A stretch of 64,000 nt of DNA from Frigoribacterium faeni. Its GTDB lineage: Bacteria > Actinomycetota > Actinomycetes > Actinomycetales > Microbacteriaceae. The notes under the pieces are model-generated. The model saw nothing but the letters and a program-made list of their open reading frames with translations. It did not search any database and was not told the DNA's origin. Where the stretch lies: assembly GCF_011761235.1 (NCBI RefSeq), contig NZ_JAAOYW010000003.1, positions 310,001 through 374,000 of the forward strand, in the 5' to 3' direction. The first letter of the stretch is position 1. Each line of letters starts with the position of its first letter. The position numbers were made by a program, and so were the translations under genes. This document shows, piece by piece, positions 826 to 61,766 of the stretch.

Positions 826-958
826 CGTTCCGTGATACCCCCGCGACGCTGGCCGGTCGCCCAGGGCGGGCGGTCGTCGGGGTACGCCGCCGCGCCTCCT
901 GCGGTGGTCGCCATGCCGACCGGCTGGGCGGGCAGGTCGACGGCGGCTCCGACGTGTC

Positions 959-979
959 GTGCACCAATCATTGGTACAC
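959..979. promoter_or_regulatory. Palindromic operator overlapping the -10 of the OhrR-type operon
   Basis: Inverted repeat with core ACCAAT-C-ATTGGT at 963-975. The pairing extends to 959-979 with one mismatched pair. The likely -10 box TACACT (975-980) overlaps the right arm and sits 6 nt before the ATG at 987. A MarR/OhrR dimer bound here would block the promoter, so autorepression of 987-1699 is inferred. The divergent SDR promoter is about 120 bp away. Confidence 0.75.
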
Positions 980-986
980 TCAGGGC

Positions 987-1247
987 ATGGCCACGACGAG
1001 GCCCCGCAGGCGGGGAGAGAACGACCACGAGCACGGCAGCTGGTTCGGCGACGCCGTCGAGCGCATGAACGCGCGGCTCCGCCCCTACATCGGCGGGGCG
1101 CAGCTCGGCATCCGCGACGAGGCGCCGATCACGGCGCCCGAGCACGGCGGCGCCTGCCCGCTCTGCGGCCGCCCCATGGACGAGCACGTCGTCGACCGCA
1201 GCGGTCCGCGCACGATGCTGCACTGCCCTCGGGGCGCCGCCGCGTGA
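987..1247 (+). CDS. Small CPLCG zinc-ribbon-like protein
   Basis: An 86-residue protein of unknown function. The N-terminus is basic and polar. The C-terminal third holds a CPLCG knuckle (Cys57, Cys60) followed by His67, His79 and Cys80, which could form a single zinc site. The start at 987 is chosen because TACACT lies 6 nt upstream with no Shine-Dalgarno; an in-frame ATG at 954 would sit upstream of the operator. Its stop overlaps the start of the MarR gene (GTGA), so the two are translationally coupled. A redox-sensitive or accessory role next to the OhrR-type regulator is an inference. Confidence 0.7.
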   Translation: MATTRPRRRGENDHEHGSWFGDAVERMNARLRPYIGGAQLGIRDEAPITAPEHGGACPLCGRPMDEHVVDRSGPRTMLHCPRGAAA

Positions 1248-1699
1248 GCGGCAGCGTCGAGGTCGCGCCGCCGGCCGACCCCCTCGCCCTCGAGAGCCAG
1301 ATCTGCTTCGCCCTCTCCGTCGCCTCGCGCAGCGTCGTCGCGGCCTACCGGCCCGTGCTCGACACGATGGGCCTGACCCATCCGCAGTACCTCGTCATGC
1401 TCGCCCTGTGGGAGCAGCAGCCGCTGGCGCTGCGCGACCTCGCCCGGCTGCTGCGGCTCGACCCGGGCACGCTCTCGCCGCTCGTCAAGCGCCTCGAGGC
1501 GCAGGGGCTGGTGACGCGCGAGCGCAGCGCCCACGACGAGCGGGCGCTGTCGATCGAGCTCACGCCGGCCGGCACCGCGCTGCGCAGCGAGGCCGAGTCG
1601 ATCCCCGAGCGCATGATGGCGCGCCTCGACGTGACCCGCGACGAGCTCGTCGCGCTGCACCGCACGATGACGAAGCTGATCGTCGCGGCCGAGAGCTGA
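1244..1699 (+). CDS. ohrR-like: MarR-family regulator of the OhrR (organic peroxide sensor) type
   Basis: A 151-residue winged-helix repressor. The N-terminal segment LESQICFALSVASR followed by LTHPQYLVMLALWE matches the OhrR signature, including the reactive cysteine that senses organic hydroperoxides (Cys21 here). The DNA-binding wing region SPLVKRLEAQGLVTRERS follows. The GTG start at 1244 overlaps the preceding stop. The palindrome at 959-979 is the probable operator. OhrR usually sits beside ohr (peroxiredoxin-like hydroperoxide reductase); no ohr gene is visible here, and an SDR occupies the divergent position instead. Confident as OhrR-like MarR; targets inferred. Confidence 0.88.
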   Translation: MSGSVEVAPPADPLALESQICFALSVASRSVVAAYRPVLDTMGLTHPQYLVMLALWEQQPLALRDLARLLRLDPGTLSPLVKRLEAQGLVTRERSAHDERALSIELTPAGTALRSEAESIPERMMARLDVTRDELVALHRTMTKLIVAAES

Positions 1700-1711
1700 G
1701 CCGGGCGACCC

Positions 1712-5396: not shown

Positions 5397-6025
5397 GGTC
5401 TCCCCCTCGTGTCAGGTCGATCCTGCCAGGGCCGCGTGGACGGCCGCGACCCCGGGCCGCGGCCGTCGCCGAGACCGCTCCGGGAGGCGCGGTACAGCAC
5501 GTGGGGCCGGAGGCGGTGGCCGGGCGGCAGCGCCGGGTGCTCGAAGTCGTCGGCCGCGTCGCGCGTCAGGCCGAGGCGCTCCATCAGCGCACGCGAGCGA
5601 GCGTTGGTCGCCGCGGTGAAGCTCACGACCTCGGACAGGTCCAGCCCGTCGGGATCGAAGGCGGTGCGGAGCACCGCCCGTGCGGCCTCCGAGGCGAGGC
5701 CCCGCCCCCAGGCGTCGCGGCGCAGCCGCCAGCCGATCTCGACCTGCTCGGAGAGGGGGCGCCCGCCGACCACCACGTCGAGCGACGGGCGGGACAGGCC
5801 GACGAAGCCGAGCAGCTCGCCGTCCGAGCGCTGCTCGACGGCCCAGAGCCCGAAGCCGTCCCGCTCGAAGGCCTGCTCGAGGCGGTCGATCATCGCGTCC
5901 GACTCCGCACGGGTGCGGGTCGAGGGGAAGAACTCCATCACGACGGGGTCGGCGTTCATCGCCGCGAACGGCTCACGGTCGGCGTCGCGCCAGCGGCGCA
6001 GGAGGAGGCGGTCGGTGGTGAGCAC
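5393..6025 (-). CDS. GNAT acetyltransferase, RimJ/RimL-like
   Basis: A 210-residue N-acetyltransferase. It opens with TDRLLLRRWRDADREPFAAM and has the acetyl-CoA loop region RRDAWGRGLASEAARAVL, typical of RimJ/RimL-type enzymes that acetylate protein N-termini or small amines. The last 30 residues (after HVLYRASRSG) are Arg/Pro-rich and outside the domain. GTG start at 6025, with TACCGT 6 nt upstream and no Shine-Dalgarno, so leaderless. It is coupled to the downstream DivIVA-repeat gene. Substrate unknown. Confidence 0.85.
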   Translation of the reverse strand: MLTTDRLLLRRWRDADREPFAAMNADPVVMEFFPSTRTRAESDAMIDRLEQAFERDGFGLWAVEQRSDGELLGFVGLSRPSLDVVVGGRPLSEQVEIGWRLRRDAWGRGLASEAARAVLRTAFDPDGLDLSEVVSFTAATNARSRALMERLGLTRDAADDFEHPALPPGHRLRPHVLYRASRSGLGDGRGPGSRPSTRPWQDRPDTRGRP

Positions 6026-6039
6026 CCGACGACGGTAGC

Positions 6040-6066
6040 GGAGGCGCGGTGCCGACCCGCGCCTCC
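6040..6066. terminator. Inverted GGAGGCGCGG pair forming a hairpin
   Basis: Two copies of the dispersed 10-mer in opposite orientation (6040-6049 and 6057-6066) with a 7-nt loop. It lies just upstream of the GNAT gene and downstream of the MFS gene on the minus strand, so it probably terminates the MFS transcript. A further copy (6107-6116) lies immediately inside the MFS stop codon. Confidence 0.7.
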
Positions 6067-6103
6067 TGCGGTCGCCGTCGCCTCGTCACCCGGCCCAGGA
6101 CGC

Positions 6104-7498
6104 CTAGGAGGCGCGGCGCGCGCCCCGCAGGCCCACGAACGACACGGCGGCGCTGCCGACGAGCAGCACCGCGACCACGACGACGACGCGGTGGAACCCG
6201 TCGACGGTGAGGGCGCCTCCGGCGATCACGCCCAGGAACGCGACCGCGACCAGCCCCGCCACCCGCGAGATCGCGTTGTTCACGGCGGACGCGATGCCCG
6301 ACCTCGCCGGCGAGACGCCCGACAGCACGGCCGAGGTGAGCGGCGCCACCGTCACCGCGAGGCCGAGGCCGAACAGGACGACCCCGGGCACGACCTGCCA
6401 CCAGACGTCGATCGGGTCGCGCACGAGCAGCATCCAGAGGAACCCGCTCGCCGTGATCAGCGGTCCGACGGACATGAACAGGCGCGGCCCGCGCGCGGCG
6501 GCGAGCGTGCCGAACATCGTCGAGAAGAGCAGCGAGACGATCGTCGTCGGCAGGGTGACCAGGCCGGCGAGCGTCGCCGAGAGGCCGGCGAGCTCCTGCA
6601 CGACGAGGGGGATCGTCAGCGTGCCGAGGTTGATCGCGGCGTAGAGGCCGACCGTGGCGAGGTTGCCGACGGCGAACTCGCGGACGCGGAACAGGTCGAG
6701 CGGCATCATCGGCTGGGGCGCGCGGCGTTCCCACAGGACGAAGGCGACGAGCGCGACGACGCCGCCGACGAGCGGCACGACCACGAACCAGGCGCCGAAC
6801 CCGACGCGCTGGCCCTCGATGAGCGCGAAGACGGGCCCGGCCAGGCCGACCGCCGCGAGCACGGCGCCCACGACGTCGACGCGGGCCGGCTGGTCGGGAC
6901 CCCCGCGGTGGGCGTCGCCGGGGAGGCGCGTCATCAGCCCCAGGGTCAGCACGACCGGGACGACCACCACCGCGAACACCCACCGCCAGCCGACCGTGTC
7001 GACGAGGGCGCCGCCGGCGAGCGGTCCGACGAGGAACGCGACGCCCGTCCAGGCGGTCCAGGTGCCGATGGCCCGGCCCTGGCCCGGCCCGGTGAACGTC
7101 GACGTGATGAGGGCGAGGCTCGACGGCACGAGCAGGGCCGCGGCGACGCCCTGCAGGGCCCGGGCCGCGATGAGCAGGCCCGGGTCGGGGGCGAGGGCCG
7201 CGAGCACGCTCGTGAGCGCGAACGCCACGAGGCCCGCGCGCAGCACGCGGACCCGCCCGAACGTGTCGCTGAGCGAGCCCGCGACGAGCATGAGCGACCC
7301 GAGCGCGAGCAGGTAGGCGTCGACCACCCACTGCTGCAGGGTCAGGTCGGCTCCGCTCGCCGGACCCGCGCCTCCTCCGCCGAGCCCCCGGGCGATCGCC
7401 GGGAGGGCGACCGTGACGATCGACCCGTCGAGGAAAGCGACGAAGGAGGCGAGCACGGCGACCACGAGGACGGTGCGCTGGCCTCGTGCGTCCGTCAT
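6104..7498 (-). CDS. MFS drug:H+ antiporter-like transporter (EmrB/QacA, DHA2 type)
   Basis: A 464-residue membrane protein with about 14 hydrophobic segments. The N-terminal motif VLVVAVLASFVAFLDGSIVTVALPAI and motif A (GSLSDTFGRVRVL) place it in the DHA2 drug:proton antiporter family. The ATG at 7498 overlaps the stop of the upstream membrane gene (ATGA), so the two are cotranslated. The substrate cannot be read from sequence. No TetR/MarR gene is adjacent. The C-terminal codons RRAS overlap a copy of the dispersed 10-mer. Confidence 0.9.
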   Translation of the reverse strand: MTDARGQRTVLVVAVLASFVAFLDGSIVTVALPAIARGLGGGGAGPASGADLTLQQWVVDAYLLALGSLMLVAGSLSDTFGRVRVLRAGLVAFALTSVLAALAPDPGLLIAARALQGVAAALLVPSSLALITSTFTGPGQGRAIGTWTAWTGVAFLVGPLAGGALVDTVGWRWVFAVVVVPVVLTLGLMTRLPGDAHRGGPDQPARVDVVGAVLAAVGLAGPVFALIEGQRVGFGAWFVVVPLVGGVVALVAFVLWERRAPQPMMPLDLFRVREFAVGNLATVGLYAAINLGTLTIPLVVQELAGLSATLAGLVTLPTTIVSLLFSTMFGTLAAARGPRLFMSVGPLITASGFLWMLLVRDPIDVWWQVVPGVVLFGLGLAVTVAPLTSAVLSGVSPARSGIASAVNNAISRVAGLVAVAFLGVIAGGALTVDGFHRVVVVVAVLLVGSAAVSFVGLRGARRAS

Positions 7499-8466
7499 GC
7501 CTCGAGTCTGCTCCTCATGCGCCCGCCCGCCCGCCCGAGCCTGCGCCGCTCGGCGACGAGCGCGCGGTACGCCCAGCAGCCCCTGCCCCAGAGGTACACG
7601 GCCAGGGGCACGGTGATCGCCGTGACGGTGCCGGCCCGCCCGAGGACCGCGTCGTGGAGGTCGCCCGGACCGCTGACCAGGAACACGTAGCGGACGTCGC
7701 CCTCGACGAGCCGGTCCACCGTCGCGTCGTCGGCTCCGTCGGGGACGGGGACGAGCCCCGAGGTGAGGCCCCGGACGAGCGCGTCGAAGACGACCGTCGG
7801 CTCGCCGACGACGTGGAGCTCGGCCAGCACCAGCAGCAGGACGACGAGCGGCGCGGCGAGCCACGCGAGGGCCGGCACGGGGGCGCGGCGACAGGCGTGG
7901 TCGAGGACCGCGGCGTGGGCCGTGGCGAAGCCGGCGACCGTCCCCGCGAGCGAGAACGCCACGAGCCGGTCGACGGACGCCGTCGACGTCGTGGCCGTGA
8001 CGGCGTCGGCGAGGATGCCGCCCATGAGGGCCGTCGTGCCGAACAGGAAGCCCAGGGTGAGGCCGCGGCCGGCGTGGTCGGACGCCCGCTGCAGGGTCGA
8101 CCGGAAGTCGGGGGAGCCGCTCCAGAAGGTGACGGCCCACCAGGTGACGAGGACGGGCAAGGAGCCGACGAACAGGACGGTGACGAACGACAGCCCGACG
8201 GCCAGGCTGACGAACTTCGTCTCGAACGCCTCGTCGGCGAAGAGCCGGGTCAGGACGACGGACAGGGCGAACAGCACGACCAGGCCCGTCAGGCGGCGGG
8301 GCCCGATCCTGGCCGGGCGGGCGTCGGCGGGCAGCCGGTCGAGGTCGTCGCGGCGGGCGGTGATCAAGGCCTGCCGGTAGTCGGTCGCGCCCCGACGAAG
8401 GCGGTCGCCGACGTCGCCTGCCCCGTTCTCGCGCACGCCGACGAGGAACGACACGACGCGACCCAT
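7495..8466 (-). CDS. Polytopic membrane protein of unknown function
   Basis: A 323-residue protein not recognised by family. After a soluble N-terminal 50 residues (GVRENGAGDVGDRLRRG) it has about six or seven hydrophobic segments, ending in a basic tail LGRAGGRMRSRLEA. ATG at 8466 is preferred because TATCGG lies 6 nt upstream without a Shine-Dalgarno (leaderless); a GTG at 8469 is also in frame. It is the first gene of a two-gene unit with the MFS transporter, with overlapping stop and start, which suggests a shared role at the membrane. Confidence 0.7.
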   Translation of the reverse strand: MGRVVSFLVGVRENGAGDVGDRLRRGATDYRQALITARRDDLDRLPADARPARIGPRRLTGLVVLFALSVVLTRLFADEAFETKFVSLAVGLSFVTVLFVGSLPVLVTWWAVTFWSGSPDFRSTLQRASDHAGRGLTLGFLFGTTALMGGILADAVTATTSTASVDRLVAFSLAGTVAGFATAHAAVLDHACRRAPVPALAWLAAPLVVLLLVLAELHVVGEPTVVFDALVRGLTSGLVPVPDGADDATVDRLVEGDVRYVFLVSGPGDLHDAVLGRAGTVTAITVPLAVYLWGRGCWAYRALVAERRRLGRAGGRMRSRLEA

Positions 8467-8487
8467 CACGAGCCGATATGTTACCCG

Positions 8488-8520
8488 CCGCGTGCCCGCC
8501 GCGTGCCTGCCGCGTGCCCG
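8488..8520. repeat. Three 11-bp tandem repeats
   Basis: CCGCGTGCCCG, CCGCGTGCCTG and CCGCGTGCCCG in direct succession. They lie just upstream of the membrane-protein start and beside the long inverted repeat at 8533-8592. Confidence 0.75.
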
Positions 8521-8532
8521 CCGGCGGCCGCC

Positions 8533-8592
8533 GCACCCCGGAGTGGACGATGCACCCCGTCGTTCCGGGGTGCATCGTCCACTCCGGGGTGC
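8533..8592. repeat. Perfect 27-bp inverted repeat (hairpin) between ligD and the membrane-protein gene
   Basis: Arms 8533-8559 and 8566-8592 are exact complements with a 6-nt loop TCGTTC. Each arm is bounded by the 8-mer GCACCCCG (or its complement). It lies downstream of ligD and about 65 bp upstream of the membrane gene, both on the minus strand. It may terminate ligD transcription, but its perfection is more than a terminator needs. Confidence 0.85.
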
Positions 8593-8606
8593 GAGAGGGA
8601 GGGAGC

Positions 8607-8686
8607 GTGTGCGGGAGGAGCAGGTGCGGGAGGGGCCTGGTGCGGGAGGGGGCAGGTGCGGGAGGGGGCAGGCGCGGGAGGGGTCA
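8607..8686. repeat. G-rich minisatellite ending in the ligD stop codon
   Basis: About five imperfect 16-18 bp units built on GGTGCGGGAGGGGGCA. Units at 8639-8654 and 8655-8670 are identical, and the 8671-8686 unit contains the ligD stop (8684-8686). The plus strand carries repeated GGG and GGGGG runs with short spacers, giving G-quadruplex potential downstream of ligD. Confidence 0.75.
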
Positions 8687-11134
8687 GCTCTCGCTGACGA
8701 CGTCGTCCGGCGACTTGTCAGGGCGCCAGCCGCGCCACGACGGCTGCCGCAGGCGACCCGTCGAGGTCCACTCGGCGAACGACACCTCGCCGACCCGCGA
8801 CGGCGTGATCCAGTGCGCGTCCCGCGCGTCGGCTGCGGGCACGTCGACGAGCGGGCTGGTCTTCCGCTCGACCCCGCGGAACTCGGTGAGCAGCTCGTCG
8901 AGGTCCCGGTCGCGGAACCCCGTGCCGACCCGTCCGACGTAGACGAGCCCCTCGTCGCCGGGCACGCCCATCAGCAGCGAGCCGACGCCGGAGGCGCGCC
9001 GCCCGTTCCCGGGACGCCAGCCGGCGATCACCACCTCCTGCGTCGCGTGGTGCTTCATCTTGATCCACGCCCGCGAGCGTCGGCCCGCGCTGTAGGTCGC
9101 GTCGCGGCGCTTCGCGACCACCCCCTCGAGCCGGAGGCGCTGCGACGTCCGCATCGCCTCCTCCAGGTCGCCGTCGAAGGCGACCGGCACGTCGACCGGG
9201 CCCTCCGAGGTCACGATCCGCTCGAGCACCTCCCGCCGCTCGTCGTAGGTGCGCCGCAGCAGCGACCGCCCCTCGGCGTGCAGCACGTCGAAGAGCAGGT
9301 AGCGGACAGGTGCGCCGGCCGCGGCCCGCGCGACCTCGCGGGGCCTCGACAGGCCCATCCGGGTCTGCAGCAGCCCGAAGTCGGGGCGACCGGCCTCGTC
9401 GACGGCCACGACCTCGCCGTCGAGCACCGCGCCTCCGTCGCTGTCGACCAGCCCGGCCAGGACCTGCAGCTCGGGGTAGGCCGGGGTGAGGTCGTTGCCG
9501 TTGCGGCTGGTCAGGGTGACGCGGTCGCCCTGGACGACGGCGACGGCGCGGATGCCGTCCCACTTCATCTCGACCGCCCAGTCGTCGTCGACGTCGGCGG
9601 CGGTGCCGGCGACGGCGAGCATGGGGGAGACGGGGTCGAGCGGATCGGGGTCGGGGTGCCGGCGCGGCTGCGGGCGGGCGCCGTGCGCGTCGTCGGCCAT
9701 GCGGTGGATCAGCCAGTTCTGGTCGGCCTTGCCGCCGCCGTGGCCGGTGTGGATGAGGGCGACGCGGCGGGTGCCCCGCTGCTCGCCGTGCAGCACCGCG
9801 ATGACCTCCTTGCCGTCGCGCCACTTCTCGACGTCGTAGGTGCCCGAGTCCCAGATCGTGACCTCGCCGGCGCCGTACTCGCCCTTCGCGATGGTGCCCT
9901 CGAAGGTGCCGTACTCGAGCGGGTGGTCCTCGGTCATGACCGCGAGGTGGTTCGTGCCGGGGTCGTCGGGCTCGCCCTTGGGCAGCGCCCAGCTGACGAG
10001 CACCCCGTCGTGCTCGAGGCGGAAGTCCCAGTGCAGGCGGCTCGCGTGGTGCTCCTGGATCACGAAGCTGCGGCCGTCGCTCGTCGGCGGGGCCTCGGCG
10101 GGCACCGGCTCGGCCGTCTTGGTCGCGTCGCGCTTCGACCGGTAGACGGCGAGGCGGTCGCGGCGCTCGCGGGCCTCGCCGTCGCCCGACGGGTCGTGCT
10201 CGGGCGACTCGGTGTTGCGCATGTCGTCGCCGAGCTCGCCGGGAGGCACGGGCGTGCCGCTCGAGACGTCGGCCAGGGGGTCGCCGCGACGCCGCAGCCT
10301 CGCCAGCACCTCGGTGTGCTCGAGCTGCCGGAGGCCCTTCGACGCCAGCTCGCGCCAGGTGCGCGGCATCGCGACGGTCGGGCGCTCGCGACCACGGAGC
10401 GAGTACGGCGCGACCGTCGTCTTGTTCCCGTTGTTCTGCGACCAGTCGAGCAGCACCTTGCCGCGCCGGTCGGCCTTGCCCATGGTGCTGAGCACGAGGT
10501 CGGGGTGGTCGGCCTCGACGGCCCGGGCCAGCTCGTGCGCGACGTCCGCCACCTGGGTGCTGGTCTGCGTGCCGTCGAGCCGGGCGTAGAGGTGCACGCC
10601 CTTGCTGCCGCTCGTCACGGGCACGAGCTCGAGGCCCATCCCGTCGAGGATCGGCCGCAGCAGCTGCGCGACCTCGACGCACTCGGCCAGGCCGACGCCC
10701 TCGCCCGGGTCGAGGTCGAGCACGAGGCGGTCGGGGTTCCGCTGCGCGCCGCTCGGGCCGAAGCGCCACTGCGGCACGTGCACCTCGAGCGCGGCGACCT
10801 GCGCCAGCCAGGTGAGCGTCGCGAGGTCGTTCACCATCGGGTAGACGTTCGCGTGGTCCTTGTGCTCGATCTCGTGCCGGGCGACCCAGTCGGGCGCCGA
10901 GTCGGGCAGGTTCTTCTCGAAGAAGACCTCGCCGTCGACCCCGTCCACCCAGCGCTTGCGGGTCGCCGGCCGCCCTTCGACGTGCGGCAGCATCCACTCG
11001 GCGACGGCGGCGTAGTAGCCGAGCACGTCGGCCTTCGTCGTGCCGGTCGCGGGGTACAGCACCTTGTCGAGGTTCGTGAGCTGCAGGGTGTGCCCGCCGA
11101 CCTGCACGCGCTCGCCGCGTCCCTTGCTCGCCAT
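8684..11134 (-). CDS. ligD: ATP-dependent DNA ligase LigD, Pol-PE-Lig architecture (NHEJ)
   Basis: An 816-residue multifunctional enzyme of bacterial non-homologous end joining. Order: primase-like polymerase domain (about 15-290, with the metal-binding DLD at 140-142 and TSGSKGVHLY), 3'-phosphoesterase domain (about 355-480, HHASRLHWDFRLEHDG and LPKG), and ATP-dependent ligase domain (about 500-800, adenylated Lys524 in EMKWDG). This order and length match mycobacterial LigD and differ from the PE-Lig-Pol of Pseudomonas. The ATG at 11134 has a GGAGG ribosome site within a relative of the dispersed 10-mer. ku is 1.1 kb away and divergent, with an SDR between. The partner is Ku, recruited to double-strand ends. 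Confidence 0.96.
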   Translation of the reverse strand: MASKGRGERVQVGGHTLQLTNLDKVLYPATGTTKADVLGYYAAVAEWMLPHVEGRPATRKRWVDGVDGEVFFEKNLPDSAPDWVARHEIEHKDHANVYPMVNDLATLTWLAQVAALEVHVPQWRFGPSGAQRNPDRLVLDLDPGEGVGLAECVEVAQLLRPILDGMGLELVPVTSGSKGVHLYARLDGTQTSTQVADVAHELARAVEADHPDLVLSTMGKADRRGKVLLDWSQNNGNKTTVAPYSLRGRERPTVAMPRTWRELASKGLRQLEHTEVLARLRRRGDPLADVSSGTPVPPGELGDDMRNTESPEHDPSGDGEARERRDRLAVYRSKRDATKTAEPVPAEAPPTSDGRSFVIQEHHASRLHWDFRLEHDGVLVSWALPKGEPDDPGTNHLAVMTEDHPLEYGTFEGTIAKGEYGAGEVTIWDSGTYDVEKWRDGKEVIAVLHGEQRGTRRVALIHTGHGGGKADQNWLIHRMADDAHGARPQPRRHPDPDPLDPVSPMLAVAGTAADVDDDWAVEMKWDGIRAVAVVQGDRVTLTSRNGNDLTPAYPELQVLAGLVDSDGGAVLDGEVVAVDEAGRPDFGLLQTRMGLSRPREVARAAAGAPVRYLLFDVLHAEGRSLLRRTYDERREVLERIVTSEGPVDVPVAFDGDLEEAMRTSQRLRLEGVVAKRRDATYSAGRRSRAWIKMKHHATQEVVIAGWRPGNGRRASGVGSLLMGVPGDEGLVYVGRVGTGFRDRDLDELLTEFRGVERKTSPLVDVPAADARDAHWITPSRVGEVSFAEWTSTGRLRQPSWRGWRPDKSPDDVVSES

Positions 11135-11290
11135 CGCGCGCCTCCTCGTGTCGTGTGCCTGCCCGCGGCGTCGTGCGTGCCGAGGGCGGGCCGGCCTCCC
11201 TCGATGATGCTCGCGCCGCGGCGCGGGCGCCCCGACCACGGCGGCCCGCCGCCCCGTCGTGACGGGGGAGCGGGCCGCGAGCGGAGCCGA

Positions 11291-11300
11291 GGAGGCGCGT
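11291..11300. repeat. Near-copy of the dispersed GGAGGCGCGG element
   Basis: CCGAGGAGGCGCGT, one base off the 10-mer, sits immediately downstream of the SDR stop codon in the 172-bp gap before ligD. The rest of the gap (11135-11290) shows only small hairpins. Confidence 0.6.
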
Positions 11301-11306
11301 TGGCGG

Positions 11307-12194
11307 TCAGACCGCCGGCATGGCCCCCGCGATGGTGATGGTGGCGCCCGAGGTGTAGCTCGACTCCGGGCTCACGAGGTGCACGTAGGCCGCGGCGAGC
11401 TCGGCCGGCTGGCCGGGACGGCCGTAGGGAGCCTGGCCGCCGAACTCCGACACCGTCTCGGCGTCGTCGGAGCCGGGCTGCAGCGGGGTCCAGACCGGGC
11501 CGGGCGAGACCTGGTTGACGCGGATGCCCTTGGGGGCGAGCTGCTGGGCGAGGCCGGCGGTGAAGACGCCGATCGCGCCCTTGGTCAGCGCGTAGTCGAT
11601 CTTGTCGGGGCTGGGCTGCGTGCCCTGGACCGAGCCGGTCGTCACGATGGAGGAGCCCGGCTCGAGGTGCGGGATGACCGCCTGCGAGAGCCAGAACAGC
11701 GAGTAGACGTTGGTCTTGATCGTCGAGTCGATGTCCTCGGTGGTGAGCGTGAGGATGTCGTCGTTGCTCTTCATGCGGCCGGCCACCATGACGAGCGTGT
11801 CGAGGCCGCCGAGCTCGGCGACGGCGGTCGAGACGAGGTCCTTGCAGTACTGCTCGTCCGAGATGTCGCCGGGCACCAGGACGACGCGGCGGCCCTCGCC
11901 CTCGAGCAGGTCGCGCACCTCCTCGGCGTCGGTCTGCTCGCTGGGCAGGTAGCTGAGCACGAGGTCGGCGCCCTCGCGGCTGAGCGCGATGGCGGCGGCA
12001 CGGCCGATGCCGGAGTCGCCGCCGGTGACGATGCCGCGGAAGCCGGTGAGGCGCTCCTTGCCGACGTAGCTGGTCTCGCCGTGGTCGGGCTTCGGGTCCA
12101 TCTTCCAGGCCTCGCCCGGCAGCGACTGCTCCTGCTTCGGGAACGGCGGCGCGGGGTACAGGTCGACCGGGTTCTTCTTGTCGTATTGGCTCAT
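11307..12194 (-). CDS. SDR-family oxidoreductase, general-stress type
   Basis: A 295-residue NAD(P)-dependent dehydrogenase of the same group as the partial gene at 1-825. It has the proline-rich lead DLYPAPPFPKQEQ, cofactor motif TGGDSGIG at 57-64, active-site YALTK near residue 205, and C-terminal SSYTSGATITIAGAM. The start at 12194 (MSQYDKK) is preferred by similarity to the family; an ATG nine bases upstream is also in frame. It sits between ligD and ku on the ligD strand, so cotranscription with ligD is possible, with the 172-bp gap arguing for a separate signal. A stress-linked role is an inference. Confidence 0.9.
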   Translation of the reverse strand: MSQYDKKNPVDLYPAPPFPKQEQSLPGEAWKMDPKPDHGETSYVGKERLTGFRGIVTGGDSGIGRAAAIALSREGADLVLSYLPSEQTDAEEVRDLLEGEGRRVVLVPGDISDEQYCKDLVSTAVAELGGLDTLVMVAGRMKSNDDILTLTTEDIDSTIKTNVYSLFWLSQAVIPHLEPGSSIVTTGSVQGTQPSPDKIDYALTKGAIGVFTAGLAQQLAPKGIRVNQVSPGPVWTPLQPGSDDAETVSEFGGQAPYGRPGQPAELAAAYVHLVSPESSYTSGATITIAGAMPAV

Positions 12195-19108: not shown

Positions 19109-19147
19109 AGGGCCCCGAGGAGGCGCGGTGCGCGTCCCCGGGGCCCT
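19109..19147. terminator. Hairpin terminator carrying the dispersed 10-mer in its loop
   Basis: AGGGCCCCG (19109-19117) pairs with CGGGGCCCT (19139-19147). The loop holds a GGAGGCGCGG copy at 19119-19128. It sits between the converging SMP-30 and FAD-reductase genes. Confidence 0.75.
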
Positions 19148-32890: not shown

Positions 32891-32921
32891 TCGTCCGTCC
32901 CGCCCCCGGGCGGCTACGGGG

Positions 32922-47042: not shown

Positions 47043-47079
47043 AGGGGGCGAGGGAGGGCGAGGGCCGAGGAGGCGCGGG

Positions 47080-48744: not shown

Positions 48745-48769
48745 CCGCGCCTCCTCGGCTCGCTAGGCT
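48745..48769 (+). promoter_or_regulatory. aspA promoter candidate with dispersed 10-mer
   Basis: A minus-strand GGAGGCGCGG copy (48745-48754) is followed by a -10 candidate TAGGCT (48764-48769), in the 230-bp gap between the divergent MFS and aspA genes. The aspA message would have a short leader with GGAGG near the GTG. Confidence 0.45.
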
Positions 48770-53134: not shown

Positions 53135-54480
53135 GGCGTCGGGTGCTGCGCGTCGTAGGTGCGGAACGCCGGCGTGAGCCGGGCCACCACCGCGATGAGC
53201 ACGACGATGAGCGCCCCGCCGAGGAGGGGCGGCCAGACGACCCCCGCGGCCGCGACGAGCCCGACGAACAGGTCGCCGACGCGCGGCCCGCCCGTGACCA
53301 CGACGATGAAGATGCCCTGCAGGCGTCCCCTCATCTGGTCGGGGGCGGCCGTCTGCAGGATGGTCGAGCGGAAGATCGAGCTCACGTTGTCGGCGGCCCC
53401 GGCCCCCGCCAGGGCGACCGCCGCGCCGGTCAGCGCGACGAGGTCGGCCTGCCCGAGCCCCTCGGTCAGTCCGCCGTCCCCCCGCGGCACGGTCAGGGCG
53501 AGCACGACGCCGAAGGCCGCGATGCAGACGCCGTAGACCGTGATGGCGCGGTCGACCGCGCGGCCCTGCAGCCGCACGTGGCCGAGCCGGCCCGAGAAGA
53601 CGCTGCTGAGCAACGCGCCCACGGCGTAGGAGGCGGTGAGCACGCCGACCGTCACCGCGCCTCCTCCGATCACCACGGCCCCGACCACGGGGTAGAGCAC
53701 CCGCGGCTGGCCGAACGTCATCGCGATGACGTCGACGACGAAGGTGGTGCGCACGGTGGGGGCCCGTCGCAGGAACTGCACGCCCTCGATCAGCGAGGCG
53801 AGCCCCGGCCGCAGGGCCGTGCCCTCCGGCCGGATCGGCGGCAGCGTCACGATGCCGAGGAAGGCGAACGAGAAGAGCACGACGTCGACCGTGTAGGTCG
53901 GCGCGAAGCCGATGCCCGCGACGAGCACGCCCGCCAGGGCGGGCCCCACGGTGAGCATCAGGCCCGTCCCGATGCCGCCGAGCGCCGCCGCGGCGGGCAG
54001 CAGCGAGGCCGGCAGGAGGCGCGGCACGATCGACGCCCGTGACGTCGCGATCATCGTGCCCGCGACCGCGTTGACGCAGGTCAGCACGTAGAGCAGGCCC
54101 ACCTCGTGCAGGCCGAGCCACGCGTGCAGCGCGATGGCGGCCGTCGACATCCAGGCGAAGACGGCGGCCACCAGGGCGACGGTGCGCCGGTCGAAGGCGT
54201 CGGCCAGCATGCCGCCCCAGAGCCCGGCGACGATCATCGGCACGAGCGACACGACGCCGACGAGCGCCACCGCGAAGGTCGAGCGGGTGATGTCGTAGAC
54301 CTCGAGGCCCACGGCGACGAGCGTCAGCTGGGTGCCGATGCCGCTGACGGTGTTGCCGACGAACAGGCGGGCGAAGGCGGGGCTCTGACGCAGGGGCGTG
54401 AGGTCGGCGAACACGGGGCGGCGGGGAGTCGCCGCGGGGCCGCTCGAGGGCGGCTCGGGGGCGGGCGGTGGAGTGGACAA
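53131..54480 (-). CDS. MFS transporter, enterobactin-exporter (EntS)-like
   Basis: A 449-residue transporter with about 12 membrane segments, beginning LRQSPAFARLFVGNTVSGIGTQLTLVAVGLEVYD and including GGMLADAFDRRTVALVAA, typical of the EntS/DHA3 group. The start is uncertain: a TTG at 54480 is used, but GTGs at 54504 and 54414 are possible and no good Shine-Dalgarno fits. It diverges from the FKBP gene. A minus-strand GGAGGCGCGG copy (53655-53664) is in frame within a membrane helix. Export substrate unknown. Confidence 0.85.
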   Translation of the reverse strand: MSTPPPAPEPPSSGPAATPRRPVFADLTPLRQSPAFARLFVGNTVSGIGTQLTLVAVGLEVYDITRSTFAVALVGVVSLVPMIVAGLWGGMLADAFDRRTVALVAAVFAWMSTAAIALHAWLGLHEVGLLYVLTCVNAVAGTMIATSRASIVPRLLPASLLPAAAALGGIGTGLMLTVGPALAGVLVAGIGFAPTYTVDVVLFSFAFLGIVTLPPIRPEGTALRPGLASLIEGVQFLRRAPTVRTTFVVDVIAMTFGQPRVLYPVVGAVVIGGGAVTVGVLTASYAVGALLSSVFSGRLGHVRLQGRAVDRAITVYGVCIAAFGVVLALTVPRGDGGLTEGLGQADLVALTGAAVALAGAGAADNVSSIFRSTILQTAAPDQMRGRLQGIFIVVVTGGPRVGDLFVGLVAAAGVVWPPLLGGALIVVLIAVVARLTPAFRTYDAQHPTP

Positions 54481-55917: not shown

Positions 55918-58197
55918 GTGTCATCTGAGCTCGAGCGCGAACGCGCCTACGTGGCCACGCTGTACGCGCGTCTGGACGAGTTGAAGGCCGACGCCCGCGT
56001 GCGGCTCGAGCGCACCCGGCGGGAGGCCGTCGGCGGCAACCACCAGAGCCGCAGCGAGCGCGACGCCTTCGCCCGGCTCTACGAGGACACGATCACGCAG
56101 CTCGGCGCCGTCGACGAGCGCCTCGCGTTCGGCCGCCTCGAGCTCGAGCGGCCCGACGAGACGGGCAGCGCCCACCGCTACATCGGCCGCGTCGGCCTGC
56201 GCGACCGGCAGCACCACCCGATCCTGCTCGACTGGCGGGTGCCCGGCGCGAGCGCCTTCTACCAGGCCACCGCGGCGACGCCGATGGGCGTGCGCGCCCG
56301 TCGTCACCTGACCCTCGACGGCCGCACGGTCACCCGCCTCGAGGACGAGGTCTTCGACCCCGACCTCCTCGACCGCGACGACGTCCAGCTGCAGGGCGAG
56401 GGCGCCCTGATGGCGGCCCTCACGGCCCAGCGCACGGGTCGCATGACCGACATCGTCGCTACCATCCAGGCCGAGCAGGACGCGATCATCCGCTCCGCCC
56501 TCGACGGCGTGCTCGTCGTGCAGGGCGGCCCGGGCACGGGCAAGACCGCGGTCGCGCTGCACCGCGCCGCGTACCTGCTCTACTCGCACCGCGACCGCCT
56601 CCGGGGCTCGGGCGTGCTCGTCGTCGGCCCGTCACGGTCGTTCCTGCGCTACATCGAGCAGGTGCTCCCGTCGCTCGGCGAGAGCGGCGTCGTGCTCTCC
56701 AGCCTCGGCGGCCTCTACCCCGACCTCGAGACGCAGGTCGACGACGCCCCCGACGTCGCGGCCCTCAAGGGCTCGGCCGAGATGGCCGAGCTGATCAAGC
56801 GCGCGGTGCGCTCGCGGCAGGTCAGGCCCAGCCAGGCCACGACCGTCGACGTCAACGGCGAGCGGCTCGTCGTGCCGGCCGAGCTCGTCGGCGACGCCCT
56901 GCGCCGTGCGCAGGAGCGGGGCAAGCAGCACAACCTCGGCCGCGTCACCTTCAACAAGGCGGCCCTCTCGGCCCTCACCCGTCTGCTCGTCTCGCAGATG
57001 CGCGAGCACGGCACGACCGTCGACGAGTCCGACGAGGCCGTCCTGCGCGAGGACATCCGGCAGTCGCACGACGTCCGGGTGCTGCTGAACACGGCGTGGA
57101 TGCCGCTCTCGGCCGAGAAGCTCGTCGAGGACCTCTTCGCGCGGCCGAACTGGCTGGCGACGCTCACCCCCCGCTGGACCCCGGAGCAGCGCGCCCTCCT
57201 GTTGCGCGCCCGCGGCTCGCAGTTCACGATCTCCGACGTGCCGCTGCTCGACGAGGCGGCCGAGCTGCTGGGCGAGTTCCAGGCCGGGGTCGACCCCGAC
57301 AAGCTCGCCCGCAAGCAGCAGCGCAAGCGCGACATCGAGAACGCCGAGCGCGCCATCGAGAACATGGGCGTCGAGGGCATGGTGTCGGCCGAGCAGATCG
57401 CCGGCGGCTTCGCCGAGCGCGCCGCGTCGATGACCACAGCCGAGCGGGCCGCGGGCGACCGCACCTGGGCCTTCGGGCACGTCGTGGTCGACGAGGCGCA
57501 AGAGCTCTCGCCCATGCAGTGGCGCCTGCTGTCGCGCCGGTGCCCGCTGCGCTCGTTCACCGTCGTCGGCGACATCGCCCAGGCGTCGAGCCCGGCCGCC
57601 GCCTCCTCGTGGCAGCGGGCGCTCGAGGCGCTGCTCGGCCGTCGCCGCGGGTCGAGCGTCGCCGGCACCACCGCGCCCTGGCGCCTCGAAGAGCTCACGG
57701 TCAACTACCGCACGCCGAGCCAGATCGTCGAGCACGCCGAGCGGCTCGCCGTCGCGAACGGGCTGACCGTCACGCCCAGCCGGTCGGTGCGGTCGAGCGA
57801 GTGGCCGGTCCGCGAGATCGCGGTGCCCGCGCTCGCCGCGACGGGCGACAGCCGAGGAGGCGCGGCGCACGACGCGCTCGTCGCCGCGGCCGTCGAGGCG
57901 GCCGCCGCCGACCGCGGGGTCGACGCCGACGGCACCCTCGCCGTCATCGCGCCGCAGCACCTCGTGGCCGACCTCGTCGCCGGCCTCGAGCCGCTGTTCC
58001 CGGGGCAGGTGGCGCCGGGCACGGCGTCCCTCACGAAGCCGATCTCGGTGCTCAGCCCGGCGACGTCGAAGGGCCTCGAGTTCGACGCCGTCGTGCTCGT
58101 CGACCCCGAGGGCGTCCGCACGGGCGCGGCCCGGGGCGCGGCGAGCCTCTACGTCGCCATGACCCGGCCGACGCAGCGCCTCACCGTCGTCGGCTAG
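55918..58197 (+). CDS. helD: HelD-type UvrD/Rep-family helicase (RNAP recycling)
   Basis: A 759-residue superfamily-1 ATPase related to HelD, which in Gram-positives pries stalled RNA polymerase from DNA. The N-terminal coiled region (LERERAYVATLYARLDELKADARVRLERTRREA) and YIGRVGLRD are HelD-like. Walker A GGPGTGKT is at residues 203-210, DEAQELSPMQWRLL the Walker B, later TTAPWRLEELTVNYRTPSQIVEHA and a C-terminal SKGLEFDAVVLVDP and YVAMTRPTQRLTVVG. GTG at 55918 with GGAG 8 nt upstream; TAGACT (55876-55881) is a likely -10. A GGAGGCGCGG copy is in frame (57856-57865). Confidence 0.88.
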   Translation: MSSELERERAYVATLYARLDELKADARVRLERTRREAVGGNHQSRSERDAFARLYEDTITQLGAVDERLAFGRLELERPDETGSAHRYIGRVGLRDRQHHPILLDWRVPGASAFYQATAATPMGVRARRHLTLDGRTVTRLEDEVFDPDLLDRDDVQLQGEGALMAALTAQRTGRMTDIVATIQAEQDAIIRSALDGVLVVQGGPGTGKTAVALHRAAYLLYSHRDRLRGSGVLVVGPSRSFLRYIEQVLPSLGESGVVLSSLGGLYPDLETQVDDAPDVAALKGSAEMAELIKRAVRSRQVRPSQATTVDVNGERLVVPAELVGDALRRAQERGKQHNLGRVTFNKAALSALTRLLVSQMREHGTTVDESDEAVLREDIRQSHDVRVLLNTAWMPLSAEKLVEDLFARPNWLATLTPRWTPEQRALLLRARGSQFTISDVPLLDEAAELLGEFQAGVDPDKLARKQQRKRDIENAERAIENMGVEGMVSAEQIAGGFAERAASMTTAERAAGDRTWAFGHVVVDEAQELSPMQWRLLSRRCPLRSFTVVGDIAQASSPAAASSWQRALEALLGRRRGSSVAGTTAPWRLEELTVNYRTPSQIVEHAERLAVANGLTVTPSRSVRSSEWPVREIAVPALAATGDSRGGAAHDALVAAAVEAAAADRGVDADGTLAVIAPQHLVADLVAGLEPLFPGQVAPGTASLTKPISVLSPATSKGLEFDAVVLVDPEGVRTGAARGAASLYVAMTRPTQRLTVVG

Positions 58198-58312: not shown

Positions 58313-58912
58313 TCAGCGGTAGTCGGGCGGCCAGGCGAACGCGGGAGGCGCGGCGACGGTCTCGCCCCGCGGGGCGAGCACGAGCGCGACGTCCTCGAAG
58401 TCGCTCAGGCGGATGCCGGCCGGGTCGCCCGACCAGCGGCTCCCGTCCACGAAGGCGGTCAGCTCGAGGCCGTCGTCGGGGCCGAGGGAGCCGATGCGCA
58501 CGGCGTCGAGGTGGACGTCCCACTCGGTGAACAGCTGCCCGAGCACGAACGACTCCCGCCGGGGCGACTCGACGTGCACGATGCCCGAGGTGTCGTGGGT
58601 GTGCAGGGGAGCGGCGAGCTTCGTGTCGGCGTCGTGGCCGATGTCGCCGGGGATCGTGACGTCCTCGCCGTCGACGGTGATCGAGAGGTGGGTGTGCACG
58701 TGCATCGCGAGGTCCTGGCCCCAGACGTTCTGCATGCCCGCGAGCTCGGCCCGGCCCGGCCGGTCGCCCACGTCGGGTACGGGCCACGGGGGAGCGACCT
58801 CGGCCCCGACGACCCGGGTGGGCAGCCCCGAGCCGACCACCCCGACGCCGACGGCGCCGCCGGCGACCACGAGCGCGGCGAGGGAGGCGAAGACGACGTC
58901 GCGGGACGGCAC
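58313..58912 (-). CDS. Exported/membrane-anchored protein with HxHxH motif
   Basis: A 199-residue protein of unknown function. N-terminal hydrophobic segment (FASLAALVVAGGAVGVGVVGSG) acts as signal or anchor. His71-x-His73-x-His75 (MHVHTHLSITVDG) precedes a beta-rich domain with TKLAAPLHTHDTSGIVHVES, so a metal-binding extracytoplasmic role is plausible. GTG start at 58912, only 4 bp from the emfourin stop, so it is the last gene of the peptidase-inhibitor unit. A dispersed 10-mer copy (58344-58353) lies in frame. Confidence 0.75.
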   Translation of the reverse strand: MPSRDVVFASLAALVVAGGAVGVGVVGSGLPTRVVGAEVAPPWPVPDVGDRPGRAELAGMQNVWGQDLAMHVHTHLSITVDGEDVTIPGDIGHDADTKLAAPLHTHDTSGIVHVESPRRESFVLGQLFTEWDVHLDAVRIGSLGPDDGLELTAFVDGSRWSGDPAGIRLSDFEDVALVLAPRGETVAAPPAFAWPPDYR

Positions 58913-59273: not shown

Positions 59274-59304
59274 GGCCGCGATGCTACTCCGCGACCCGGG
59301 ACGG

Positions 59305-60348
59305 TCAGGCGACCGGCTCGACGCCCACGCCCCGCCAGCCCGCGACCGTCGCCCGAGCCTCGTCGGAGTCGGCGCCGTAGCGCTCCGTCGCCGCCGCCAC
59401 GGTGGCCGTGGCGAAGTCCGTGAAGGAGGCGGTCGTCGCGAGCCGGCCGCCGACGAGCGTGTCGTACCAGACCTGCCCGGCCCGCTGCCACGCGCGCCCG
59501 CCGAGGGCGTCGGCGACGAGGAAGAACGCGCGGTTCGGGATGCCGGAGTTGAGGTGCACCCCGCCGGAGTCGTCCGTCGTCTCGACGTAGTCGTCCATGT
59601 GGGCGGGCTGCGGGTCCGTGCCGAGGACGTCGTCGTCGTAGGCGGTGCCGGGGGCCGACATCGACCGCAGGGCCTTGCCCTGCACGGCCTCGGTGAAGAG
59701 CCCCTCGCCGATCAGCCAGGTCGCCTGCTCGGTCGTCTGGTCGAACAGGTGCTGCTCGACGAGCGCACCGAACACGTCGCTGACCGACTCGTTGAGGGCG
59801 CCGGACTGCCCCTGGTACTCGAGGTTCGCCGTGTACTGCGTGACCCCGTGGGCGAGCTCGTGCCCGATGACGCTGACCGAGGCCGTGAACCGGCGGAACA
59901 CCTCGCCGTCCCCGTCGCCGAACACCATGCGCTCGCCGTTCCAGAACGCGTTGTCGTAGTCGCGGCCGTAGTGCACCGTGGCGTCGAGTGGCAGGCCCGC
60001 GCCGTCGATGCTCGACCGGCCGTAGGCCTCGGCGAAGAGCGCGTGCGTGGCGCCGAGGGCGTCGTACGCCTCGGTGACGGCGACGTCGTCGCCGGCCGGC
60101 TCGCCCTCTCCGCGCACCCGCACGCCGGGCAGCTGCTCGGTGCCCTGGGCGTCCCAGACGGTGCGCTCGACCTCGCGACCGCGGGCGACGGCGCCCTGGC
60201 GGACGGGCGGCGCCTCGCTGCGCGCGGCTCGGACCTCGTCGATCTGGAGCAGGCCCTGCCGGGCGGCCTCGGGGGCGCGCGTGAACCGGTCGGTGTCGGC
60301 CGCGGCCAGGTGGGCGAGCAGGTACGGGGGGACGATGAACCGTGTCAT
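59305..60348 (-). CDS. Protealysin-like M4 metallopeptidase
   Basis: A 347-residue thermolysin-family zinc peptidase of the protealysin group. The propeptide is short and carries the PPYLL motif at residues 7-11, with no signal peptide, as in protealysin precursors, so it is cytosolic or released without Sec. Zinc ligands are H163 and H167 in HELAHGVT and E187 in NESVSDVFG; the second catalytic His region is GGVHLNSGIPNRAFF. Length matches protealysin (about 340). The inhibitor emfourin is next door. Confidence 0.93.
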   Translation of the reverse strand: MTRFIVPPYLLAHLAAADTDRFTRAPEAARQGLLQIDEVRAARSEAPPVRQGAVARGREVERTVWDAQGTEQLPGVRVRGEGEPAGDDVAVTEAYDALGATHALFAEAYGRSSIDGAGLPLDATVHYGRDYDNAFWNGERMVFGDGDGEVFRRFTASVSVIGHELAHGVTQYTANLEYQGQSGALNESVSDVFGALVEQHLFDQTTEQATWLIGEGLFTEAVQGKALRSMSAPGTAYDDDVLGTDPQPAHMDDYVETTDDSGGVHLNSGIPNRAFFLVADALGGRAWQRAGQVWYDTLVGGRLATTASFTDFATATVAAATERYGADSDEARATVAGWRGVGVEPVA

Positions 60349-60465
60349 GGACGAACTCTCGCACCGGCCCCCGACATCGCGGCCGATCGTTCACACGATC
60401 GTCACGGGCGGCGGCCGCGGCTCCCGCGTCCGCTCCCGCCCGCCGGAGCCGGTAGCGTCGACCGG

Positions 60466-61005
60466 ATGACCGCCTCCGACGCCTCCGCCCTCGTCGACCG
60501 CCTGATCGCCGTCGTCCCCGACTTCCCCGTGCCGGGCATCCTGTTCCGCGACGTGACGCCGCTCTTCTCCGACGCCGACGCGTTCGCCACCGTGACCGCG
60601 GCCCTCTCCGAGCCCTTCGACGGCTCGTTCGCGGCGGTGGCCGGCATCGAGGCCCGCGGCTTCGCCCTCGCGGGCGGCATCGCGATCGAGCAGGGCGTGG
60701 GCGTGCTCACGGTCCGCAAGGCCGGCAAGCTCCCGGGCGAGGTCCTCAGCGAGAGCTACGCCCTCGAGTACGGCGAGGCCACCCTCGAGCTGCGCCCGAG
60801 CCAGCTGCCGGCCGGCACCCGCGTGCTCGTCGTCGACGACGTCCTCGCGACCGGCGGCACGGCCGAGGCCACCGTGACGCTGCTCGAGCGCGCCGGCTAC
60901 GAGGTCGTCGGCATCGCGGTCCTGCTCGAGCTCGAGGGCCTGCCCGGCCGGGAGCGGCTCGCGTCGCGCCTCCCCGTGCACGCCCTCGGCACCGCGCCCG
61001 CCTAG
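60466..61005 (+). CDS. apt: Adenine phosphoribosyltransferase
   Basis: A 179-residue purine-salvage enzyme making AMP from adenine and PRPP. The PRPP loop LVVDDVLATGGTAEA is at residues 121-135, and VPGILFRDVTPLFSD and AGIEARGFALAGGIA are Apt hallmarks. Leaderless (TAGCGT 7 nt before ATG). Divergent from the protealysin gene and convergent with the M50 peptidase gene. Confidence 0.95.
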   Translation: MTASDASALVDRLIAVVPDFPVPGILFRDVTPLFSDADAFATVTAALSEPFDGSFAAVAGIEARGFALAGGIAIEQGVGVLTVRKAGKLPGEVLSESYALEYGEATLELRPSQLPAGTRVLVVDDVLATGGTAEATVTLLERAGYEVVGIAVLLELEGLPGRERLASRLPVHALGTAPA

Positions 61006-61022
61006 GGCGCGCCGGCCTCGGC

Positions 61023-61766
61023 CTAAGGCGCGAGCCACCCCGGGAACACGAGCAGCGACGAGCCGACGAGGCAGGCGGCCGCGACCGCCACGAAGACGCC
61101 CACCCAGACGACGCCGGGCACGTGCGTCTGGCTCGCGAGCTGGTCGGCGTCCGACTCGGTGCGGGCCCCGTGCCGCGCGGCCCGGCGTCGGCTCGACTGC
61201 AGCTCGAGGGAGGCGCGGAGGGCGCCCAGCCCGAGCACGCTGACCAGCACCAGCCCGAACACCTGCTGCCACTCGACGGGCGCGAGCCAGGTGACGCCCG
61301 CGACGAGGGCGCCGCCGACGAGCACGACCCAGAGGCCGAACCAGTTGCGGATCTGCACGAGCATGAGGGCGAGCAGCAGCAGCAGGGCCCAGAGCAGCCC
61401 GGCGGCGAAGCCCGCGCCGAGCAGCCAGGCGGCCCCGAGCGACGCCAGCGCCGGGGCGGTGTAGCCCGCCAGCAACGTGAGCACCATGCCGGGCCCGGTG
61501 CGCGGGCCACGAGAGACCGTCAGCCCCGACGTGTCGGAGTGCAGGCGGATGCCCGACAGCCGTCGGCCCGTCACGACCGCGGCGAGCCCGTGGCCGCCCT
61601 CGTGCACGACGGTCACCGCGTGCCGCACCGTGTGCCAGGTGCCGGGCAGCAGCACGAGCGCGGCGCCGGCCGCGACGGCGAGCGCGGTCCACGACGGGGG
61701 CAGCGGGTCCGCGCGCTGCACGACCCGGGCCCAGAGCGCGGCCAGGGAGGCGGTGGTCTCGTCCAT
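61023..61766 (-). CDS. M50-family (site-2-protease-like) intramembrane metallopeptidase
   Basis: A 247-residue polytopic protein. The zinc motif HEGGH is at 55-59, after a first hydrophobic segment and followed by four or more membrane helices. It resembles the B. subtilis YwmB/M50B group rather than RseP (no PDZ domain). Leaderless (TAGGCT 6 nt before ATG at 61766). A GGAGGCGCGG copy is in frame at 61209-61218. A role in regulated intramembrane proteolysis is possible; PrsW lies 8 kb away. Confidence 0.85.
   Translation of the reverse strand: MDETTASLAALWARVVQRADPLPPSWTALAVAAGAALVLLPGTWHTVRHAVTVVHEGGHGLAAVVTGRRLSGIRLHSDTSGLTVSRGPRTGPGMVLTLLAGYTAPALASLGAAWLLGAGFAAGLLWALLLLLALMLVQIRNWFGLWVVLVGGALVAGVTWLAPVEWQQVFGLVLVSVLGLGALRASLELQSSRRRAARHGARTESDADQLASQTHVPGVVWVGVFVAVAAACLVGSSLLVFPGWLAP

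Follow-up and report, generated by a model that had tools for sequence, protein, structure and literature searches.

The described systems closest to the element reported here are the DNA uptake sequence (DUS) of Neisseria and the uptake signal sequences (USS) of the Pasteurellaceae. The Neisseria DUS, GCCGTCTGAA, whose receptor is the pilin ComP, is a 10-base word present in many copies in coding and intergenic DNA, and the relevant part of PMC6370729 places it with type IV pilus machinery. The sections of PMC2397512 that deal with the DUS describe terminators formed by inverted copies a short distance apart, high conservation in permissive places and absence from recently acquired genes. Sequence-specific DNA uptake is regarded as an exception: in a 2025 paper (PMC12040237) Neisseria is described as an outlier, Haemophilus being the other case named. 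Here we analyze a 64,000-nucleotide stretch of the Frigoribacterium faeni genome (the window; G000:C3:310001-374000, from a genome of 3,199,322 bases in 5 contigs) and the 10-base word GGAGGCGCGG that is dispersed through it. Judged from its distribution, (A)GGAGGCGCGG may be a self-label resembling a DNA uptake sequence, a reading to which we give about even credence.

Like the Neisseria DUS, GGAGGCGCGG is a 10-base word with many copies both within and between genes. It is a different word, its host is a high-G+C Gram-positive bacterium, and its uptake role and receptor are putative; in addition, some word-bearing relatives are without the pilus protein PilM, and the word shows no orientation bias relative to genes. 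Compared with the AAGTGCGGT and ACAAGCGGTC types of USS, the words here diverge further between genera, the carriers are Gram-positive, and the excess of GGAGGCGCGG drops more abruptly past zero mismatches. Repetitive extragenic palindromic (REP) elements and bacterial interspersed mosaic elements (BIME), as well as Chi and FtsK-orienting polar sequences (KOPS), are likewise short, dispersed and abundant, and the distribution measured here fits neither group. Within one bacterial family GGAGGCGCGG and a second word, CGGATGCCGC, are mutually exclusive, a pattern similar to that of the two Pasteurellaceae USS versions, as these are presented in the pertinent part of PMC1939737. Micrococcus luteus, also an actinobacterium with comEA and comEC, undergoes natural transformation via Tad/Flp pili, ComEA and ComEC (PMC4322843), and carriers that have no type IV pili might use such a route; that paper nowhere uses the phrase 'uptake sequence'.

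Overrepresentation of GGAGGCGCGG in the window and the genome

The window has a G+C content of 74% and contains 24 copies of GGAGGCGCGG, 14 on the plus and 10 on the minus strand. A sequence-only reading of the same DNA had listed 20 exact copies; all 20 positions proved exact, and four further copies (at 5483, 7366, 9427 and 54015) had been overlooked. In 100 dinucleotide-preserving shuffles of the window the word averaged 2.54 copies with a maximum of 7, none of the shuffles reaching 24, and an order-4 Markov model predicted 1.5 copies, which gives GGAGGCGCGG the top score among window 10-mers with at least 12 copies. When gene boundaries were taken from a home-built gene finder, 13 of the 24 copies fell between genes and 11 within them.

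The excess extends over the genome. GGAGGCGCGG occurs 926 times (462 + 464 by strand), compared with 103 occurrences (58 + 45) of the reversed word, the same letters backwards, which served as composition control; the sequence-only reading had made its claim depend on such a difference. A 464-kb sample, composed of the window and twenty 20-kb stretches of contig C1, was used for finer measurements and holds 100 copies, of which 42 are intergenic, in 10.1% of the sequence, 57 are coding and 1 lies across a boundary. In this sample 300 anagrams of the word averaged 8.9 copies, the largest count being 54. Synonymous shuffling of 438 genes (200 rounds) gave 12.8 expected coding copies (sd 3.2, largest 21) against the 57 observed, codon bias having been named earlier as one way in which the claim might fall; the reversed word lay below its expectation under the same procedure (11 vs 27.7). 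The coding copies occupy all six frame/strand classes. Copies are denser in tandem (1.12/kb) and convergent (1.05/kb) gaps than in divergent gaps (0.44/kb).

The strand-bias check that had been suggested returned a balanced result, both in the genome-wide counts above and along contig C1, where the sample contains 40 plus and 36 minus copies with no strand trend. Only one of the 20 sampled stretches is without a copy. A single recent mobile family, named earlier as a way in which the word might be explained away, is made less likely by two observations: copies occur in both coding and intergenic DNA, and they do not share long flanks. A Shine-Dalgarno role was rejected: in only 2 of the 100 copies does GGAGG fall 4-13 nt ahead of a called start codon, and because so few stand at a fitting distance GGAGGCGCGG is not generally a Shine-Dalgarno site, as the sequence-only reading had also maintained.

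Motif shape, inverted pairs and conservation

The core is preceded by A in 33 of the 42 intergenic and 27 of the 57 coding copies; C is favoured at +13 and A/T at +17. A single copy is not a palindrome, and conservation is slight beyond about 18 bp. The excess over anagrams falls from 10.9 for exact copies to 1.6, 1.1 and 1.06 at one, two and three mismatches, and the 11-mer AGGAGGCGCGG gives 47, 3.9 and 1.3 for zero, one and two mismatches. The excess of known uptake sequences declines more gradually with mismatches, according to the section of Bakkali on this point (PMC1939737).

Five (+,-) pairs within 60 bp of each other, equal to 10 of the 100 copies in the 464-kb sample, were found, all of them between genes. 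The inverted-pair share in known uptake sequences is about 10%, as given in the corresponding part of PMC1939737. Two of the pairs are in the window. The left arm at 6040-6049 (plus strand) and the right arm at 6057-6066 (minus strand) are both intergenic; the second pair consists of a left arm at 32848-32857 (plus strand) in a convergent gap and an intergenic right arm at 32880-32889 (minus strand). Both had been read as hairpins, and both do fold when taken as plus-strand stretches, 6030-6080 at -33.7 kcal/mol and 32835-32900 at -50.9 kcal/mol. The intergenic copy at 19119-19128 (plus strand, convergent gap) had been assigned to a terminator loop; folding places it inside a longer hairpin.

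For conservation the window was aligned with matching regions of five congeners. The M4 protease gene of the window is 91-92% identical to those of Frigoribacterium sp. PhB116 and ACAM 257, in keeping with a Frigoribacterium as the source organism. Intergenic GGAGGCGCGG sites were exact in 27 of 50 aligned congener cases, as compared with 4.5-17% of control 10-mers, and coding sites in 28 of 45 as compared with 10-25%; the controls were other 10-mers with nine G/C, unaligned cases (15/65 intergenic, 10/55 coding) were left out, and the cases are non-independent because the genomes are related. The congener regions, each joined from four stretches to a total of 72 kb, contain 29 to 39 copies. 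Strong conservation of the Neisseria DUS in permissive core-genome places is described in the relevant section of Treangen et al. (PMC2397512).

Words and dialects across the Microbacteriaceae

A family survey covered 249 Microbacteriaceae genomes from 85 genera. GGAGGCGCGG is strongly enriched in 5/5 genomes of genus g1 (842-1378 copies) and in 4/4 genomes of genus g32 (220-688 copies vs 61-118 of the reversed word). One of four g55 genomes has 399 copies vs 142 reversed, the other three being near control; the g55 case is doubtful, with 0/8 sampled copies intergenic, and this genome is included among the 10 genomes counted as GGAGGCGCGG carriers. None of the remaining genera of the survey contains a genome with 60 or more copies at twice control. 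Among 28 named genomes, 10/10 Frigoribacterium were enriched (842-1623 vs 41-148 reversed), compared with 0/18 of the others, among them Plantibacter, Clavibacter, Schumannella, Leifsonia, Microbacterium and Streptomyces. Three Frigoribacterium genomes are common to both sets, with identical counts, so that 12/12 distinct genomes of this genus are enriched.

The form of the word differs between genera. In the g32 genome G105, where 80 kb hold 15 copies, the word has an extended form of the CGG[CA]CTGGAGGCGCGG type, and T precedes the core in 11 of the 15, where Frigoribacterium mostly has A. Within Frigoribacterium the genome of the window is enriched in a variant, GGAGGCGGTGG (35 vs 1.6 expected in the 464-kb sample), as are G110 (13 vs 0.5), ACAM257 (4 vs 0.3) and PhB116 (5 vs 0.3); Leaf186 and PhB160 are not (1 vs 0.3 each). 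The variant is possibly a sub-dialect of one Frigoribacterium genome group. A 51-base hairpin in genus g32, GGGAGGCACGGTGCCAGCTGGCACCGTGCCTCC (L155:11062-11111), pairs a form of the g32 core that differs by one base. It matches a plasmid record of Curtobacterium citreum at 94%, which hints that g32 could be Curtobacterium; the G+C content of that record is an oddly high 86%.

CGGATGCCGC was first found by a blind k-mer search in two other genera. At a cut-off of 60 copies and a 4-fold excess over the reversed word it passes in 114 of the 249 family genomes and in 0/10 of those counted for GGAGGCGCGG. Its strands are roughly balanced (samples of two genomes), it occurs in coding and intergenic DNA, and inverted pairs are present in 3/4 genomes inspected. 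Leifsonia sp. Root4 has 1258 copies vs 43 reversed. In Microbacterium 18/19 named genomes are above the cut-off, the exception being sp. 8M (82 vs 57); 0/3 named Frigoribacterium and 0/4 named Plantibacter genomes are. An order-wide draw of 297 genomes, 23 of them from Microbacteriaceae, was surveyed for CGGATGCCGC. None of the 274 genomes from 19 other families is above the cut-off, and one of these, G525, has 59 vs 6.

Putative competence machinery and its relation to the words

A type IV pilus operon is present in the genome of the window at L147 (C2:542001-562000). It contains a PilT relative that exceeds the curated cut-off, a PilB-type ATPase with its best model match below the cut-off, a PilC-type membrane protein, a major pilin and two minor prepilins, a prepilin peptidase, PilM, and a match to PilO that stays below the cut-off; the gene between PilM and PilO is without a family match. 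The three prepilin-like proteins are encoded at 10126-10788, 10785-12131 and 12254-12682 of L147, and a 588-aa protein at 8333-10099. A comEA-like gene (under the model cut-off) adjoins comEC, comEA having been examined in this genome only. The Pfam ComEC model matches the comEC stretch, for which NCBIfam, with a guessed reading frame, gave no match, and DprA was not found with one query in 504 kb of the genome's own sequence. Pilin, PilM and ComEC are present in the Frigoribacterium and g32 genomes tested. ComEC was found in 26/26 genomes tested and is therefore non-discriminating.

PilM was found in 122 of the 249 family genomes, including 10/10 counted for GGAGGCGCGG; N_methyl pilins split the family similarly, not identically (128/249). 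Either word is carried by 82 of 122 PilM-positive vs 42 of 127 PilM-negative genomes (odds ratio 4.1, Fisher p 8e-8) and, by genus, by 31 of 43 vs 14 of 42 (p 0.0005), in tests made without correction for phylogeny or genome size. Among genomes with at least 15 reversed-control matches, the two-sample p for the CGGATGCCGC ratio against PilM is 0.0016. The PilM-negative carriers of CGGATGCCGC include 2/3 drawn genomes of g85, identified as Microbacterium by counts equal to those of named genomes, and 3/4 of g79. With 42 PilM-negative carriers, a strict requirement of a type IV pilus for CGGATGCCGC is unsupported; these genomes may have another pilus (Tad/Flp, as in Micrococcus luteus), may have lost the machinery recently, or may use the word in a role other than uptake.

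Mobile DNA

CGGATGCCGC is possibly rare in mobile DNA, where it was near background in a small amount of material. Four Microbacterium phages (142 kb) contain 2 copies vs 1.2 expected from their own composition, and two Microbacterium plasmids (100 kb) contain 1 vs 1.3 expected. A Microbacterium replicon filed as a plasmid and chromosome-like in character has 20 copies in 50 kb vs 1.2 expected. The terminase protein TerL was matched in 1 of 37 genomes, G063, whose prophage, with bounds drawn by eye, is free of CGGATGCCGC over 15.8 kb and sits in a 19.7-kb gap between copies. The 8-base core GGATGCCG is present at 2-8 times expectation in the Microbacterium phages.

A proposed uptake label and its alternatives

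The features shared with DUS and USS are a genome-wide excess, strand balance, intergenic preference together with a coding excess, inverted pairs, site conservation and group-restricted dialects. From the observed distribution, conservation and dialects and from the machinery that is present, we infer that the word would be recognized during uptake, that a pilin would be its receptor and that these bacteria would be competent. DNA bearing the word would be preferred by a receptor at the cell surface, most likely one of the minor pilins of the L147 type IV pilus, and ComEA and ComEC would then carry this DNA inward. Recombination with the DNA of kin would seed and repair copies, leading to their accumulation at permissive sites on both strands, and chance inverted neighbours among the copies could be reused as gene-end hairpins. 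Related genera would use other words as dialects, such as the CGG[CA]CTGGAGGCGCGG form of g32, with CGGATGCCGC serving in much of the family; its PilM-negative carriers would need another pilus. Somewhat more tentatively, much of the Microbacteriaceae may practise sequence-specific, self-preferring uptake with at least two mutually replacing word families, CGGATGCCGC on the one hand and GGAGGCGCGG with its genus dialects on the other, and with a dialect shift within Frigoribacterium (GGAGGCGGTGG).

The sequence-only reading had also likened the word to uptake sequences, an interpretation that finds partial support, and most of the testable sequence hallmarks are present; the connection to the pilus, the one-mismatch excess and the within-gene orientation are where the proposal fares less well. 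Several observations weigh against it. The one-mismatch excess is weak, being reached by 21 of 200 anagrams (reversed word: 347 vs 356). Within genes no orientation bias was detected among the 57 coding copies, a small sample (27 sense vs 30 antisense). Across the family, words and type IV pilus correlate significantly but loosely: of the 114 CGGATGCCGC genomes 42 lack PilM, and 40 of the 122 PilM-positive genomes have neither word. In samples of g17, g68, g5 and g50, PilM-positive genera without either word, no comparably strong word emerged; the best were CGAGGCGCTC in g17 (21 vs 4.2 in 80 kb) and AGCAGCTGCT in g68 (12 strand-wise counts vs 1.1 in 80 kb), the search in g5 and g50 being confined to intergenic words in 80 kb each. 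Both phage copies of CGGATGCCGC are in LaviMo (17 kb, 0.13 expected). One Curtobacterium phage and 100 kb of one Curtobacterium plasmid together have 1 copy of GGAGGCGCGG with about 1.6 expected, material too small to speak of depletion. A literature search on Frigoribacterium and natural transformation returned no match. Given the loose association with the pilus and the absence of the orientation preference of known systems, we stop short of calling GGAGGCGCGG a proven member of the DUS/USS class. In all uptake sequences examined by van Passel, one orientation is always favoured within genes, as stated in the part of PMC2346458 on orientation. Such a preference is a reported regularity of known uptake sequences and not part of their definition.

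The main rival holds that the word is a binding site for an intracellular chromosome or recombination protein (a nucleoid protein, a Chi-like helicase-nuclease regulator or a repair factor) whose specificity changed between genera. It would likewise accommodate the chromosomal enrichment, conservation, group-specific words and low phage counts, and it would also account for CGGATGCCGC genomes without type IV pili and for the missing orientation bias within genes. Chi and KOPS, the FtsK-orienting sites, are oriented with replication and have a strong strand bias. GGAGGCGCGG differs from them in having no such bias along C1 or relative to genes, and an oriented Chi/KOPS site is accordingly unlikely, given the strand counts genome-wide and in the C1 sample. 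The copies are spread over the C1 stretches and not gathered in a single region, and the inverted pairs at gene ends would be unexpected for an intracellular site, which we consider an unlikely explanation deserving to be kept in view. REP elements are palindromes limited to intergenic space. That GGAGGCGCGG is a transcription terminator or REP-like element, forming the stem of hairpins after genes, agrees with the intergenic position of all five (+,-) pairs, the strong hairpins of both window pairs and the richer convergent and tandem gaps, and a REP-like role had been mentioned earlier as an alternative. As the main role it was rejected: 90 of the 100 copies are outside such pairs, 57 are within genes, on both strands and above codon expectation, the single word is non-palindromic, and there is little conservation past about 18 bp. 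We regard this explanation as improbable. Composition, codon bias or mutation bias acting alone might be suspected from the G+C content of the window and from neighbouring words, such as GAGGAGGCGG, that are frequent too; the counts are far lower in synonymous shuffles, anagrams, the reversed word and sister genera, and bias was rejected on the first three of these, leaving it a negligible chance.

If the uptake label is real, it would be, to our knowledge, the first Gram-positive uptake-sequence system, and an independent actinobacterial case would show that sequence-specific uptake evolved repeatedly. The family would then offer many natural dialects for the study of receptor-word co-evolution, and transformable environmental actinobacteria would be predicted. 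Were the role intracellular, the words would still constitute an abundant chromosomal code of a large bacterial family, undescribed in the literature searched. Searches on uptake sequence and Microbacteriaceae, and on DNA uptake sequence, Actinobacteria and overrepresented, gave no match, and no report of an actinobacterial uptake word was among the matches listed, in a search whose scope excluded most subscription papers and all bioRxiv preprints. Among the matches listed for GGAGGCGCGG no title deals with these bacteria or with a word repeated in a genome, and among those listed for CGGATGCCGC no title deals with such a motif.

Remaining copies in the window and other repeated words

Apart from the paired and hairpin copies, the intergenic copies of GGAGGCGCGG in the window are found in divergent gaps at 890-899 (minus), 21176-21185 (plus), 24516-24525 (plus), 31014-31023 (plus) and 48745-48754 (minus), in a convergent gap at 47069-47078 (plus), and at 2092-2101 and 26054-26063 (both minus). 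The copy at 6107-6116 (plus) lies at the 3' end of the gene at 6104-7498 and is exact in 5/5 congeners, as is that at 9427-9436 (minus) within a gene. The other within-gene copies are on the plus strand at 5483-5492, 49233-49242, 54015-54024, 57856-57865, 58344-58353 and 61209-61218 and on the minus strand at 7366-7375, 38191-38200 and 53655-53664. No RNA families at gathering score and no tRNAs were found in the window.

Several other repeated sequences were encountered. Genome G045, which is without PilM, has an abundant repeat around GGCGTATCGAGA and TCTCGATACGCC that resembles a longer interspersed repeat and no single word. G063 has, beside CGGATGCCGC, an intergenic repeat with the words GGTTTCGACA and GACAGGCTCA (7-8 copies/100 kb). 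In 80 kb of G178 the words of the palindrome TTTCACGTGAAA count 8 strand-wise (about 4 sites) vs about 0.1 expected; from its sequence it looks like a transcription factor operator. The intergenic words AGACCTAC and CTACAGCCCT are strongly enriched in 80 kb of G142 (genus g79), with 16 and 13 copies, and overlapping palindromes CGGATGCCGCGGCATCCG are present there as well. Finally, runs of at least 10 G are frequent in the 464-kb sample of the window's genome, with 39 overlapping GGGGGGGGGG vs 0.5 by the Markov model.

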